In this document: positions 1 to 11,934 of the stretch, one piece after another
Layout: every line of letters starts with the position of its first letter
Position numbering within the stretch: the stretch's first letter is position 1
Assembly (NCBI RefSeq): GCF_900111015.1
Contig: NZ_FOFS01000012.1
Span: 124,001-188,000, forward strand
DNA length: 64,000 nucleotides
Source of the DNA: Solimonas aquatica
Lineage (GTDB): Bacteria; Pseudomonadota; Gammaproteobacteria; Nevskiales; Nevskiaceae
Direction: 5' to 3'
Notes under the pieces: model-generated
Databases searched by the model: none
The model's input: the letters and a program-made list of their open reading frames with translations, nothing else
Told to the model about the DNA's origin: nothing
Translations under genes and position numbers: made by a program

Positions 1-381
1 CTCGCCGTGGCCGGCATCTTCTTCATGATGGGCGCGCCGTTTGCCGGTGCCCTGGAAGTGATCGTCTACGCCGGCGCGATCATGGTGCTGTTCGTGTTCG
101 TGGTGATGATGCTCAACCTCGGGCAGGCCACCGTCGATCAGGAACGCCACTGGATCCAGATGCGCTACTGGGTGGGGCCGGGGCTGCTCTCGGCGATTCT
201 GCTCGCCGGACTGCTGTTCGTACTGGGCAACGGCGGCACGCATCCGATGAGCATGACCGAGGTCAGCGCCAAGCAGGTGGGCATCCATCTGTTCGGACCT
301 TATCTGCTGGCGGTGGAACTGGCGTCGATGCTGCTGCTGGCAGCACTGGTGGCGGCCTACCACCTCGGCAAGCACGACTAA
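1..381 (+). CDS. nuoJ: NADH-quinone oxidoreductase subunit J, 5'-truncated by window edge
   Basis: Membrane subunit of proton-pumping complex I. The reading frame is open from base 1 and ends with TAA at 379-381, so the N-terminal part lies outside the window. Visible is the family core (GAPFAGALEVIVYAGAIMVL, then FVFVVMML), which forms the conserved helix near the quinone module, followed by two more hydrophobic segments and a short basic C-terminus. It lies 24 bases before nuoK in the usual nuoJ-K-L-M-N order. Identification rests on the signature helix and the context; the true start is not visible. Confidence 0.95.
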   Translation, partial: LAVAGIFFMMGAPFAGALEVIVYAGAIMVLFVFVVMMLNLGQATVDQERHWIQMRYWVGPGLLSAILLAGLLFVLGNGGTHPMSMTEVSAKQVGIHLFGPYLLAVELASMLLLAALVAAYHLGKHD

Positions 382-405
382 GCGATACGCACGGGAATAG
401 GGACG

Positions 406-729
406 ATGGAAACGACTGGGTTGGTGACAATCCCGATGGAGCACGGCCTGATTCTGGCCGCGATCCTCTTCGTGCTGGGCTTAACCGGCGTGATGGTTCG
501 GCGCAACATCCTGTTCATGCTGATGTCGCTGGAAGTGATGATGAATGCCGCGGCACTGGCCTTCGTCACCGCCGGCGCCCGCTGGCAGCAGGCTGACGGC
601 CAGATCATGTTCATCCTGGTGCTGACGCTGGCGGCCTCCGAGGCCTCCGTGGGTCTGGCCATTCTCATGCAGCTGTATCGGCGCTTCCACACCCTGGACG
701 TCGATGCCGCATCCGAACTGAAAGGGTGA
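406..729 (+). CDS. nuoK: NADH-quinone oxidoreductase subunit K
   Basis: Small three-helix antiporter-like subunit of complex I (107 residues against about 100 in E. coli). The two membrane glutamates needed for proton transfer are present as E43 (in SLEVMMN) and E79 (in AASEASVG). Their spacing of 36 matches E36 and E72 of the E. coli protein. The ATG at 406 is preceded by an AGGGA ribosome site. An internal ATG at 436 would give a shorter form. The gene stops 7 bases before the first of two tandem small reading frames that separate it from nuoL. Confidence 0.96.
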
Positions 730-734
730 GGGCG

Positions 735-972
735 CAATGAAAGCAAAGCTTTCATTGCGCCCGAACGCACGGCCAGGGATGGCCGGGCCGGGGCTCGAGT
801 TGCCGGCGAAGGTCGCGCCACGGATGGCCGCAACAATGAATTGGGAAAGCCACCAATGAAAGCAAAGCTTTCATTGCGCCCGAACGCACGGCCAGGGATG
901 GCCGGGCCGGGGCTTGAGTTGCCGGCGAAGGTCGCGCCACGGACGGCTACACATACGAATAGGGAAGCCCAC
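735..972 (+). repeat. Two perfectly abutting 119-bp tandem units with palindromes, between nuoK and nuoL
   Basis: Unit 1 is 735-853 and unit 2 is 854-972, with no spacer. About 108 of 119 positions match by eye. The first 85 or so bases differ at one site, and most mismatches lie in the last 30 bases. Each unit opens with a perfect hairpin (10-bp arms CAATGAAAGC/GCTTTCATTG, loop AAA; 735-757 and 854-876), followed by a smaller palindrome CGGCCA-GGGA-TGGCCG. The unit tail resembles the sequence just before nuoL, including its ribosome site, so the duplication probably copied the nuoL leader. It could be a REP-like element or a duplicated coding unit (see the two small reading frames). Confidence 0.9.
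737..859 (+). CDS. Possible 40-residue small protein, repeat copy 1
   Basis: Unrecognised. ATG at 737 follows a GAGGGCG ribosome-site-like stretch 7 bases after the nuoK stop. The frame reads MKAKLSLRPNARPGMAGPGL and continues to TGA at 857-859. That stop overlaps the ATG of the second copy (ATGA). The peptide is basic, rich in Pro and Gly, and has no clear membrane segment. The first 29 codons of the two copies differ by one synonymous change (CTC/CTT). Coding is inferred only from the start-stop coupling, and a non-coding palindromic repeat remains at least as likely. Confidence 0.3.
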   Translation: MKAKLSLRPNARPGMAGPGLELPAKVAPRMAATMNWESHQ

Positions 973-975
973 TGA
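856..975 (+). CDS. Possible 39-residue small protein, repeat copy 2
   Basis: Second copy of the small frame. ATG at 856 is preceded by GGGAAAG (844-850), and TGA at 973-975 shares its final A with the nuoL ATG (TGATG), as in true coupled operon genes. The first 29 residues equal copy 1, and the C-terminal ten or so have diverged. No known domain is recognised. If translated, ribosomes would pass from nuoK through both small frames into nuoL. If not, the overlap is a by-product of duplicating the nuoL leader. Confidence 0.3.
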   Translation: MKAKLSLRPNARPGMAGPGLELPAKVAPRTATHTNREAH

Positions 976-2837
976 TGCATCTCCTCTTTCTCGTCTTCCT
1001 GCTGCCGCTGCTCGGCTTCGTCACCCTGGCCCTGGGCCGCACGCGCATCTCCGAGAACGGCGGTGCGGTGATTGGCGTCGGCAGTGTCGGTCTGGCCGCC
1101 GCGATCACCGGCTTCATCGCCACGCAGTTCTATCAGCTGCCGGCCGGTGAGTCCTATACCCAGGTGCTGTGGACCTGGATGAACGTCGATGGCTTTGTGC
1201 CGCGCTTTGCCCTGCGCCTGGATCAGCTGTCGATGCTGATGATGTGCGTGATCACGGGCGTGGGCTTCTTCATCCACCTGTTCGCGTCCTGGTACATGCG
1301 CGGCGACGAGGCCTATACCCGCTTCTTCGCCTACATGAATCTGTTCGTGGCCAGCATGCTGTTCCTGGTGCTGGGCGACAACCTGCTGTTCCTGTACTTC
1401 GGCTGGGAAGGCGTGGGTCTGGCCTCCTATCTGCTGATCGGCTTCTGGTATCAGGACGCCGCCAACGGCGCGGCCGCGCGCAAGGCCTTCGTGGTCACCC
1501 GCGTTGGCGACACTTTCATGGCCATCGGCCTGTTCATTCTCTTCCATGCCCTGGGCACGCTGGAGATCCAGGAGATCCTCCGGCTGGCGCCGCAGCACTG
1601 GCAGGCCGGTGATCCGCAGCTGACGGCGGCGGCGCTGCTGCTGCTGGGCGGCGCGGTGGGCAAGTCGGCACAGCTGCCGCTGCAGACCTGGCTGCCGGAT
1701 GCCATGGCCGGTCCCACCCCGGTCTCGGCGCTGATTCACGCCGCCACCATGGTCACCGCCGGTGTGTACCTGATCGCGCGCACGCATGTGCTGTTCGAAC
1801 TCTCGCCGCTGGCGATGTCGGCGGTGGGCTGGACCGGCGGTGTGACGCTGCTGATGGCGGGCTTCATTGCGCTGACGCAGAGCGACATCAAGAAGATTCT
1901 CGCCTACTCGACCATGTCGCAGATCGGCTACATGTTCCTGGCGCTGGGCGCGGGCGCTTACCAGCCGGCGGTGTTCCATCTGATGACGCACGCCTTCTTC
2001 AAGGCGCTGCTGTTCCTCTCGGCCGGTTCGGTGATTCTGGCCTGCCATCACGAGCAGGACATCTTCAAGATGGGCGGTCTGCGCAAGCAGATTCCCTTCA
2101 CCTTCTGGGTGTTCCTGATCGGCTCGCTGGGTCTGGTGGCCTTCCCGCTGACCTCGGGTTTCTTCTCCAAGGACCAGATCCTGTTCCAGGCCTGGGCCTA
2201 TGGCCACCAGCATCTGTACTGGATGGGGCTGGCCGGCGCCTTCATGACCGGTCTGTACACCTTCCGCCTGATCTTCATCGCCTTCTTCGGCCCCACGCAG
2301 TTTGAAAGGACGGGGCACGGCCATGAGATTCACAAGCCGCACGGTGCCGATCACGGCCTGCCGCTGGCGGTGCTGGCGGTGGCGGCGCTGCTGGGCGGCT
2401 TCATCCACATCCCGCTGGACAGCGTGCTGCCGCAGCCGGCCATCGGCGAGGCGCAGGAACACGCCGAGCATGCGCTGGCCCTGCGTTCGGTGCTGGTGTC
2501 CTTTGCCGGCATCGCCCTGGCCTGGTTCTTCTTCCTGAAGAATCGCGGCCTGGCCGAGGCGATCAAGACCAGCGGCGTGGGCAATCTGCTGTTCCGCTGG
2601 TGGCGCGCCGCCTTCGGCTTCGACTGGCTCTACGACAAGCTGTTCGTGAAGCCGTATCTGTTCATTGTCCACATCAACCGTCATGACGTGGCCGACCAGC
2701 TGATCGGTCTGCTGCCGCAACTCACCATGGGCGCCAATACCGAACTCGCCGGCACGCAGAACGGCCGCCTGCGCTGGTACGCCGCAGCCACCGCTGCGGG
2801 CGCCATCCTCGTCATCGCCGCCGTGATCGTCCTATGA
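975..2837 (+). CDS. nuoL: NADH-quinone oxidoreductase subunit L
   Basis: Distal antiporter-like proton-pumping subunit of complex I, inner membrane, 620 residues (family about 610). Key residues fall almost exactly at E. coli positions: E145 in GWEGVG, K230 in VGKSAQ before the PLQTWLPDAM signature, H335 and H339 in VFHLMTHAFFK, and K399 in GFFSKDQ. The C-terminal part contains the amphipathic connecting helix and a final membrane segment. The start is preceded by AGGGAAG. The last codons overlap the nuoM start (ATGA, 2834-2837), indicating coupling. Confidence 0.97.
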   Translation: MHLLFLVFLLPLLGFVTLALGRTRISENGGAVIGVGSVGLAAAITGFIATQFYQLPAGESYTQVLWTWMNVDGFVPRFALRLDQLSMLMMCVITGVGFFIHLFASWYMRGDEAYTRFFAYMNLFVASMLFLVLGDNLLFLYFGWEGVGLASYLLIGFWYQDAANGAAARKAFVVTRVGDTFMAIGLFILFHALGTLEIQEILRLAPQHWQAGDPQLTAAALLLLGGAVGKSAQLPLQTWLPDAMAGPTPVSALIHAATMVTAGVYLIARTHVLFELSPLAMSAVGWTGGVTLLMAGFIALTQSDIKKILAYSTMSQIGYMFLALGAGAYQPAVFHLMTHAFFKALLFLSAGSVILACHHEQDIFKMGGLRKQIPFTFWVFLIGSLGLVAFPLTSGFFSKDQILFQAWAYGHQHLYWMGLAGAFMTGLYTFRLIFIAFFGPTQFERTGHGHEIHKPHGADHGLPLAVLAVAALLGGFIHIPLDSVLPQPAIGEAQEHAEHALALRSVLVSFAGIALAWFFFLKNRGLAEAIKTSGVGNLLFRWWRAAFGFDWLYDKLFVKPYLFIVHINRHDVADQLIGLLPQLTMGANTELAGTQNGRLRWYAAATAAGAILVIAAVIVL

Positions 2838-4363
2838 TTCTGCTCTGGCTGATTCTGATTCCTTTCATCGGCGGCCTGCTGAGCTGGCAGGGCGAGCGCT
2901 TCGTCGGTCGCGGCTTCCCGCGCTGGGTGGCGCTGCTGACCATGCTCTTCGCGCTGGGCATCTCGGTCTGGCTCTGGGTGGTCGGCGACTACTCGCTGCC
3001 GGCGGTGGGCGGCAAGCCGCAGTGGACCATCGAATACCAGGCGAGCTGGATTCCGCGCTTCGGCATCTCCCTGCATCTGGCGATGGACGGCCTGGCGCTG
3101 CTGCTGGTGGTGCTGACCAATCTGCTGGGCGTGATGGCGGTGGCCTGCTCCTGGCGTGAAATCGAACGCAACGTCGGCTTCTTCCATCTGAACCTGCTGT
3201 GGAACCTGGGCGGCGTGGTCGGCGTGTTCCTCACGCTGGACCTGTTCCTGTTCTTCTTCCTCTGGGAAATGATGCTGGTGCCGATGTACTTCCTGATCGC
3301 GCTCTGGGGCCATAACGCCCCGGGCGGCAAGGGACGCATCTACGCGGCCACCAAGTTCTTCATCTTCACCCAGGCCTCGGGCCTGATCATGCTGCTGGCG
3401 ATTCTGGGTCTGGTGTTCGTGCACTACCAGCAGACCGGGCACTTCAGCTTCGACTACATGGACCTGCTGGGCATGTCCATGGCGCCTTCGGTGGAAATGC
3501 TGCTGATGCTGGGCTTCTTCATCGCCTTCGCGGTGAAGACGCCGATGGTGCCTTTCCATTCCTGGCTGCCGGACGCGCACTCGCAGGCGCCCACCGCCGG
3601 CTCGGTGGATCTGGCCGGCATCCTGCTCAAGACCGCTGCCTTCGGCATGCTGCGCTTCGCGCTGCCGCTGTTTCCCAATGCCTCGCATGCCTTTGCGCCG
3701 GTGGCGATGGGCTTCGGCGTGCTGGGCATCATCTACGGCGCGTTCATGTGCTTCTCGCAGAACGACATCAAGCGCCTGGTCGCCTATTCCTCGGTGAGCC
3801 ACATGGGCTTCGTGCTGGTCGGCGTGTACGCCGGCACCCAGCAGGCGCTGCAGGGTGTGGTGGTGCAGATGCTGGCGCATGGCCTTTCGGCCGGCGCGCT
3901 GTTCATCCTCTGCGGTGAAATCTACGAACGCATCCACACCCGCGAGCTGAGCCAGATGGGCGGCCTGTGGGCGCGCTTTCCGTATCTGCCGCCGATCGCC
4001 ATGTTCTTCGCTGCCGCCTCGCTCGGTCTGCCGGGCATGGGCAATTTCGTCGGCGAATTCCTGATTCTGCTCGGCAGCTGGAACATCGCGCCGCTGACCA
4101 CGGCGCTGGCCGCCACGGGCCTGGTGATGGGCGCGGTCTACACCCTGATTCTGGTGCAGCGCGCCTTCCACGGCGCTCCGGCCGCCGGTGCGCCGCCGCT
4201 CAAGGATCTGGGCCGGCGTGAGCTGGCGATGATGGGCGTGCTCATGCTGCTGCTGCTGGGCCTGGGCGTTTATCCGCAAACCGTGCTCAACACTTCCGCC
4301 TCCGCCATGCATCAGGTGCACACGATCTACAGTGCCGCGGCCGCCACCGGAGTGGCGCCATGA
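2834..4363 (+). CDS. nuoM: NADH-quinone oxidoreductase subunit M
   Basis: Middle antiporter-like subunit of complex I, 509 residues, many membrane helices. The pumping pair E145 (FLWEMMLVP) and K235 (AVKTPMVP) is present, followed by the conserved HSWLPDAHSQAPTAGSVDLA segment. Four-base overlaps with nuoL upstream and nuoM-nuoN downstream (ATGA at 4360) place it in a coupled operon. Nothing is unusual in length or sequence. Confidence 0.97.
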   Translation: MILLWLILIPFIGGLLSWQGERFVGRGFPRWVALLTMLFALGISVWLWVVGDYSLPAVGGKPQWTIEYQASWIPRFGISLHLAMDGLALLLVVLTNLLGVMAVACSWREIERNVGFFHLNLLWNLGGVVGVFLTLDLFLFFFLWEMMLVPMYFLIALWGHNAPGGKGRIYAATKFFIFTQASGLIMLLAILGLVFVHYQQTGHFSFDYMDLLGMSMAPSVEMLLMLGFFIAFAVKTPMVPFHSWLPDAHSQAPTAGSVDLAGILLKTAAFGMLRFALPLFPNASHAFAPVAMGFGVLGIIYGAFMCFSQNDIKRLVAYSSVSHMGFVLVGVYAGTQQALQGVVVQMLAHGLSAGALFILCGEIYERIHTRELSQMGGLWARFPYLPPIAMFFAAASLGLPGMGNFVGEFLILLGSWNIAPLTTALAATGLVMGAVYTLILVQRAFHGAPAAGAPPLKDLGRRELAMMGVLMLLLLGLGVYPQTVLNTSASAMHQVHTIYSAAAATGVAP

Positions 4364-11790: not shown

Positions 11791-11934
11791 ATGGCGATTA
11801 AGAAAGCTGCAAAGAAGGCTGCGAAGAAGGCGACCAAGAAGGCTGCCAAGAAGGTCGCGAAGAAGGCTGTGAAGAAGGTTGCCAAGAAGGCCGCCAAGAA
11901 GGTTGCCAAGAAGGCCGCGGCGAAGAAGAAGTAA
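11791..11934 (+). CDS. Histone H1-like lysine-rich nucleoid protein, 47 residues
   Basis: Almost entirely a four-residue repeat: MAIKK followed by about ten xxKK units (AAKK, ATKK, VAKK, AVKK), ending AAAKKK. Such low-complexity Lys/Ala proteins resemble the C-terminal tail of eukaryotic histone H1 and bacterial Hc/AlgP-like proteins, and are expected to bind and compact DNA. ATG 11791 is chosen because GGAGA lies 8 bases upstream; the frame is open further upstream (ATG 11776), but that part looks non-coding. The DNA is a degenerate 12-bp repeat and so prone to length variation. Single gene in an AT-rich surrounding. Confidence 0.75.
   Translation: MAIKKAAKKAAKKATKKAAKKVAKKAVKKVAKKAAKKVAKKAAAKKK

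Follow-up and report, generated by a model that had tools for sequence, protein, structure and literature searches.

Copies of a dispersed three-hairpin element between nuoK and nuoL of Solimonas aquatica and their likely retention as a ribosome bridge

In translationally coupled operon junctions, the stop codon of one frame overlaps the start codon of the next, as in ATGA and TGATG. RNAs of the CsrB/RsmZ type carry GGA in short hairpin loops that are repeated within one RNA. Among dispersed palindromic sequences, the GTAG REPs of E. coli, Pseudomonas, Stenotrophomonas, and others occur in many copies that prefer gene 3' ends, where their termini give stop codons; tandem groups and some intragenic copies are also reported (PMC3733652). 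These REPs are defined by a GT[AG]G tetranucleotide at the foot of the hairpin (PMC6006769). Rickettsia palindromic elements (RPE) can lie in frame within protein genes (PMC3733652).

The window analysed here is a stretch of 64,000 nt from Solimonas aquatica (contig NZ_FOFS01000012.1, positions 124,001 to 188,000, forward strand). Its nuoK is closest among named relatives to those of S. variicoloris (86%) and S. flava (84%). An earlier note, made from the letters of this DNA, described two 119-bp tandem units between nuoK and nuoL with coupled frames at 737-859 and 856-975 that overlap as ATGA and TGATG; these coordinates are correct, as is its observation that the two frames begin with 29 codons specifying 29 identical residues (Table 1). 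The insert between nuoK and nuoL consists of copies of a widespread dispersed hairpin element that is not confined to nuo. The ATG of frame 1 lies inside the 5' arm of hairpin 1 of the first copy, and the predicted fold of positions 727-840 has a z score of -4.35; hairpin 3 of this copy is absent from the minimum free energy fold of that segment folded alone. The second copy lacks the 5' end, with GTGAG and the base of hairpin 1 gone, so that its hairpin 1 is reduced to 10 bp at 854-876. The tandem array (735-972) has a TRF score of 406.

Table 1 Features of the nuoK-nuoL junction in the window (positions count from the first letter of the window)
Feature	Position	Strand	Basis and remarks
nuoK	406..729	+	Pfam Oxidored_q2 match; last Gly codon and TGA stop (724-729) form the GGGTGAG start of the element
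Element copy 1, full length	724..828	+	Covariance model R1, 90.5 bits; G000:C30:124724-124828
Order of parts in copy 1: GG/GTGAG, hairpin 1, GAACGC, hairpin 2, spacer, hairpin 3	724..828	+	
Hairpin 1, copy 1	730..762	+	Inverted repeat; perfect 15-bp stem 730-744/748-762, AAA loop
Tandem unit 1, 119 nt	735..853	+	Direct repeat search; TRF
Bridging frame 1, 40 codons	737..859	+	Stop overlaps frame 2 start as ATGA; ATG 7 nt past the nuoK stop
Hairpin 2, copy 1	770..785	+	Loop region CAGGGATG, CsrA/RsmA-like CANGGANG; from sequence and family structure
Hairpin 3, copy 1	817..828	+	Loop region CACGGATG; from sequence and family structure
Element copy 2, tandem	843..947	+	Covariance model R1, 65.3 bits
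Tandem unit 2, 119 nt	854..972	+	Direct repeat search; TRF; 91% identical to unit 1
Bridging frame 2, 39 codons	856..975	+	Stop overlaps nuoL start as TGATG
nuoL	975..2837	+	Start overlaps the frame 2 stop as TGATG

The element is dispersed in the genome of S. aquatica and beyond it. A BLAST search with positions 720-1000 finds 22 places in the same genome, not counting the window copies. A core pattern allowing at most one mismatch has 22 matches there, two of which are the window copies, and 65 matches over 7 of the 11 genomes of the genus, compared with 0 for a reversed-pattern control. Covariance model R1 returns 41 matches in this genome (G000) at E ≤ 0.01, again including the two window copies. 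With S. aquatica counted in both cases, the element is present in 53 of the 58 family genomes (covariance model) and in 34 of 276 sampled genomes of the class, or 31 of 216 genera; the family and class scans scored 64 and 13 candidates per genome, respectively, so copy numbers are lower bounds. The earlier note had held that a unit recurring at many unrelated sites would mean a dispersed non-coding repeat. It recurs at such sites in the same genome, in the family, and in the class, and by the note's own criterion the small-protein reading is not supported.

A search of Rfam 15 gave no match to the element in window positions 1-3000 (E ≤ 1) or in 10 loci (E ≤ 0.5). No plasmid match to a window copy was found and viral contigs contained 0 exact matches of one core pattern, and a plasmid or viral carrier was rejected on these grounds. 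The literature search met no account of a three-hairpin element of this kind; subscription journals were largely beyond its reach, so the element may be known under another name.

Full copies usually consist of GG/GTGAG (more rarely GCGAG), a long and very variable hairpin, GAACGC, a GC-rich hairpin with a CANGGANG loop, roughly 20 nt of spacer, and a short third hairpin with a CANGGANG loop. The typical size is about 105 nt, and aligned copies with three hairpins range from 87 to 125 nt. The helices covary. Over 85 distinct aligned copies, 96.5% of 1316 cells are paired, 187 cells show double changes compared with 35.6 in shuffles, and double changes occur in 13 of 16 pairs, in an alignment that was fitted to model R1 and so favours its structure. 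Among the 83 copies with letters at the pair beside the foot, this pair is UA in 70, CG in 10, UG in 2, and another combination in 1. The foot itself reads GUGA/GAAC, or GCGA/GAGC in the 10 copies where the pair switches from U-A to C-G, a pattern from which we infer tandem G.A mismatches. For model R1, 39 of 62 copies had GTGAG at most 62 nt upstream of the core; five of the 39 were dropped by name and one near-duplicate was omitted, and the model was built from the 33 that remained and were aligned. Since the model copies were chosen for GTGAG, this start is partly a product of construction. Hammerhead and HDV ribozymes, the 5' end of group II introns (GUGYG), attC sites, and kink-turns did not fit the element by eye, and Rfam gave no match.

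The GGA loops of hairpins 2 and 3 raise the possibility that the element in the nuo mRNA is a putative CsrA/RsmA-binding RNA, in which a pair of CANGGANG-loop hairpins spaced by about 44 nt would bind CsrA and control nuoL translation or mRNA decay. Among the 133 copies of at least 80 nt, 114 contain the motif CA(N)GGANG in the segment of hairpin 2, compared with 152 of 2660 shuffles of that segment. (A cruder count of 86 of 130, in which the anchor often fell on hairpin 1, is superseded by this one.) Hairpin 3 likewise has the motif in 114 of 133 copies. Both hairpins carry it in 101 of 133, and in 87 of these 101 the two occurrences are 44 or 45 nt apart. Such a role would also fit the covarying stems, the csrA gene in 11 of 11 genomes of the genus, and the resemblance of the loop motif to the CsrA SELEX consensus RUACARGGAUGU, in which ACA and GGA are fully conserved (PMC4347634). 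However, the first A of the consensus ACA is mostly C in aligned copies, the nuo copy of G003 has GGG instead of GGA in hairpin 2, and the spread of the element itself is an equally possible function of the loops. The element resembles CsrB/RsmZ-type RNAs in its repeated GGA loops in short hairpins, a likeness predicted by sequence; it differs from them in that its hairpins belong to a sequence dispersed within genes and beside tRNAs rather than to a dedicated small RNA gene. We regard control of nuoL through CsrA/RsmA as unlikely, and it would be compatible with the bridge explanation given below.

Several properties suggest an ordinary REP element moved by a RAYT (Y1_Tnp) transposase. Like the GTAG REPs described in PMC3733652, the element is dispersed and palindromic, often lies at gene 3' ends where it gives the stop codon, and forms tandem groups. 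It also has a tag-like GTGA at the hairpin foot, and Y1_Tnp is present in 28 of the 34 element-positive genomes of the class. However, Y1_Tnp also occurs in 161 of 242 element-negative genomes, a weak association (Fisher P 0.076, tallied by eye), and it has 0 matches at E ≤ 0.001 in G000 (98.4% complete) and in G004, both of which are rich in copies. The CCANGGAYGG motif is missing from 12 of the 13 Y1_Tnp loci of the genus, and the long target duplications described below also argue against this mode of spread, which we consider very improbable. GTAG REPs and the element share the supply of stop codons at gene 3' ends. They differ in the foot (GT[AG]G in REPs, G(T/C)GA...GA(A/G)C in the element) and in size and form, a single palindrome of 20-40 bp as opposed to about 105 nt with three hairpins. 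The element further has no visible dependence on RAYT and, in 35 of 131 copies, is accompanied by direct target duplications 16-116 nt long. It can be described as a variant among dispersed palindromic elements whose foot, size, and transposase are not those of the GTAG REPs.

A reverse transcriptase partner was also considered and rejected, since RVT_1 has no match at E ≤ 0.001 in eight family genomes that carry the element (G001, G003, G004, G008, G010, G024, G035, and G049, each with 13-48 element matches). Among the two enzyme families searched, Y1_Tnp and RVT_1, no consistent mover was found. The S. aquatica genome has a reverse transcriptase domain match in two overlapping frames at G000:C21:165950-166572.

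The sites of insertion were examined in a set of 135 copies, made up of 73 of 89 and 45 of 63 hits from two model scans together with earlier copies not yet included; the hits omitted were repeats across loci or weaker. Four of the 135 were left out of the duplication test because of too little flank or repeats. In 35 of the remaining 131, the DNA that ends at GG before the element is repeated behind it over 16-116 nt, and some of these 35 are units of tandem arrays; in the other 96, target duplication was below the threshold used. Swapped flanks gave a duplication in 6 of 1295 cases. A second control, in which the upstream flank was moved by 20-50 nt, gave 34 of 524, a high value because long duplications and arrays match even after the shift. 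Examples include mutL (109 nt), a glycine riboswitch (68 nt), ddl, and mtnC, with protein names assigned by eye. At the riboswitch locus (L027:1413-1705), Rfam recognizes a weak aptamer (33.6 bits) before the element and a full aptamer (67.8 bits) after it.

The upstream flank ends in ...AGCTCAG..GG in 10 of 29 class-wide loci, interpreted here as the D-loop GG of a tRNA. In ten loci (L234, L236, L240, L242, L245, L246, L247, L253, L254, and L259, at about 1400-1750, and in L246 also at about 1770-1960), the element follows the apparent D-loop GG of tRNAs for Phe, His, Lys, Arg, and Asn identified with ARAGORN; the 5' part of the tRNA is duplicated and an intact tRNA lies downstream. Among 19 loci picked for a suspected RNA gene, ARAGORN places a tRNA or tmRNA gene next to the element in 18. 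At the ends of protein genes, 93 copies had sufficient upstream DNA for a count. In 51 of them, an open frame of 100 codons or more reaches the GTGA junction in the TGA frame, and 49 of these 51 stop at the junction; the counts in the other two frames are 14 and 33. In locus L030 (G004), the element lies in frame within a purT-like gene (named by eye) as part of a single 451-aa frame, similar to RPE. Set beside RPE by description rather than sequence, the element differs in occupying, for the most part, the ends and starts of genes as well as RNA genes. In two genera (L239 and L257), it is located at the apparent 3' end of a xerC/xerD-type recombinase gene, identified by eye.

We consider it quite possible, if somewhat short of probable, that the element represents an undescribed mobile kind distributed across the class Gammaproteobacteria. 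Such an element would be about 105 nt long and fold into three hairpins with covarying stems, with tandem G.A mismatches at the foot and two CsrA-like GGA loops. It would insert after GG in tRNA D-loops, the riboswitch, gene starts, and stop codons, its long direct duplications would restore the gene it hits, and its spread would depend on neither RAYT nor reverse transcriptase. It would also have invaded the nuoK-nuoL junction repeatedly, with selection there for translation across the insert. The duplication often leaves an intact gene or tRNA, and if this reading is true, self-repairing insertion, with the upstream target copied behind the element, would explain how important genes and tRNAs survive its entry. 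Numerous small frames and tandem repeats that are puzzling in gammaproteobacterial operons and near tRNA genes would then be accounted for by a single structured mobile element.

A search for nuoK in the family gave 53 matches in 50 genomes, of which one was read per genome; one locus (L306) had no nuoL hit, leaving 49 junctions. The view that nuoK and nuoL usually lie close together holds, with a 4-nt overlap in 75 of 80 named relatives, mostly Pseudomonas, and a gap of 2-17 nt in 34 of the 40 family junctions without the element. The latter distances do not support the alternative origin suggested in the earlier note, a duplicated nuoL leader, and relatives show no such leader. The element occupies 9 of the 49 junctions, namely those of G000 (two copies), G003, G008, G024, G026, G028, G031, G035 (three copies), and G041, where it is strongly diverged (46.9 bits). 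In G041 (L313), a diverged GC-rich array of short hairpin-like units takes the place of the element, and an 88-codon frame ends as TGATG on nuoL. The nuoK stop after Gly is TGA in 9 of 9 element junctions; in the other 40 it is TAA in 20, TGA in 17, and TAG in 3. An empty site in G004 reads AGGGGC/TGAGACGATG.

The earlier note took the coupled frames for new small proteins of complex I. Its proposed comparison of synonymous and non-synonymous change, run over three genomes, shows no conservation of the peptide. Comparison of both window copies and the inserts at the orthologous site in G003 and G008 gives pN/pS values of 0.87-1.14 for the proposed frame, a range that does not fall below that of the other two frames (0.58-1.27). 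The nuoK genes of G003 and G008 have a pN of 0.07 and a pS of 0.41 (pN/pS about 0.2), so a ratio near 1 in the insert gives no sign of a peptide conserved as a protein. Real small proteins that join complex I or regulate its assembly would be consistent with the 39-codon frames (counting an inner ATG in G003; 40 codons for window frame 1) that end as TGATG on nuoL at the same site in three genomes of the genus. However, in addition to the pN/pS values, the sequence is part of a dispersed element, the peptides at this place differ in other genomes, and the frames have no Pfam match, and we consider such proteins highly improbable.

The point at which the frames end is not trivial. A frame ends on the nuoL start in 8 of the 9 element junctions (TGATG in six, ATGCTGA in two), the exception being G024 (L345), whereas 13 of 79 copies outside nuo end near the start of an open reading frame of at least 80 codons. 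The nuoK-nuoL gap is at least 50 nt in 15 of 49 junctions, which comprise the nine with the element and six with other inserts deemed element-free by eye rather than by the model. Of the six, four (L300, L341, L346, and L348) also have a frame, of 36-77 codons, that ends on the nuoL start, and two (L299 and L349) have no bridging frame. Thus, 4 of the 12 bridging junctions are inserts without the element, and the frame seems to follow from the operon rather than from the peptide. In dinucleotide shuffles with nuoL fixed, a frame that covers at least half of the insert and ends at the nuoL start is expected in 2.3 of the 15 junctions, compared with the 12 found. Counted by presumed event, the result is 8 of 11 compared with 1.83 expected (P about 2e-6), where the grouping into 11 events is our judgement from genus and hairpin similarity. 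Requiring coverage of 60% or 75% gives 11 of 15 (1.95 and 1.33 expected) and, by event, 7 of 11 (1.6 and 1.1 expected); G000 drops out at these thresholds because two frames share its insert.

This excess suggests that the frames are probably translated bridges rather than complex I proteins, with the encoded peptides probably by-products. The stop-to-start coupling pointed out in the earlier note finds support as a translation bridge but not as a feature of complex I proteins. In the explanation that we consider likely, a non-autonomous mobile element of about 105 nt would have entered nuoK after the GG of its final glycine codon, and the element's GTGAG would then have provided the nuoK stop. 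In this genome, a tandem duplication would have followed later, giving a second copy without the 5' end. Insertion would place over 100 nt between nuoK and nuoL, two genes that normally lie close together (a gap of 2-17 nt in most of the family and a 4-nt overlap in Pseudomonas), and the resulting loss of coupling would be the selective force. Survivors would be those in which a frame stays open between the vicinity of the nuoK stop and the nuoL start. Ribosomes that terminate there could then restart, traverse the insert, and pass to nuoL at TGATG. We infer translation, re-initiation, the selective force, and the order of events in this scheme. The 119-nt unit is not a multiple of three, which accounts for two relayed frames in place of one long one in the window. 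The stop/start overlaps between frame 1, frame 2, and nuoL are like those of known coupled junctions; the difference is that coupling here seemingly runs through a foreign insert by way of a frame without a conserved peptide.

A rival explanation is a purely non-coding insertion, in which the frames and their overlaps with nuoL arose by chance in GC-rich DNA and nuoL is initiated independently. This would be in line with the frame being open inside the element in 81 of 106 copies outside nuo (20 of the 135 copies, three of them the nuo copies of L340, were dropped from this count because the frame anchor was not found); since the element is generally open in this frame, openness inside it is weak evidence. 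At some nuoL starts, the TGA in ATGCTGA or ATGA is likewise independent of any insert. However, the 12 of 15 junctions stand against 2.3 expected when the nuoL start is held fixed in the shuffles, and they include inserts free of the element, so that we judge chance frames to be rather unlikely. The 13 of 79 copies outside nuo whose frame also ends near a start, from an end-point test on 104 distinct copies, count against the bridge.

If the inserted frames are kept as a ribosome bridge, the nuoK-nuoL junctions of this family form a natural experiment, with inserts of different origin whose frames end on the nuoL start, in which the importance of coupling in complex I operons is testable. Two features of the element junctions speak against a bridge. 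Starts near the nuoK stop lie in the 5' arm of hairpin 1, as judged by eye and folded for the window alone, and in four of these junctions (L302, L311, L314, and L340), the only start near the nuoK stop is a TTG. The insert of G035, in which the copies are 111 nt apart at the last step, is crossed by one 117-codon frame from TTG. Elsewhere in the window, positions 11800-11915 contain a tandem repeat of period 12 (AAGAAGGCTGCC, 9.7 copies), perhaps encoding a lysine/alanine-rich protein tail.
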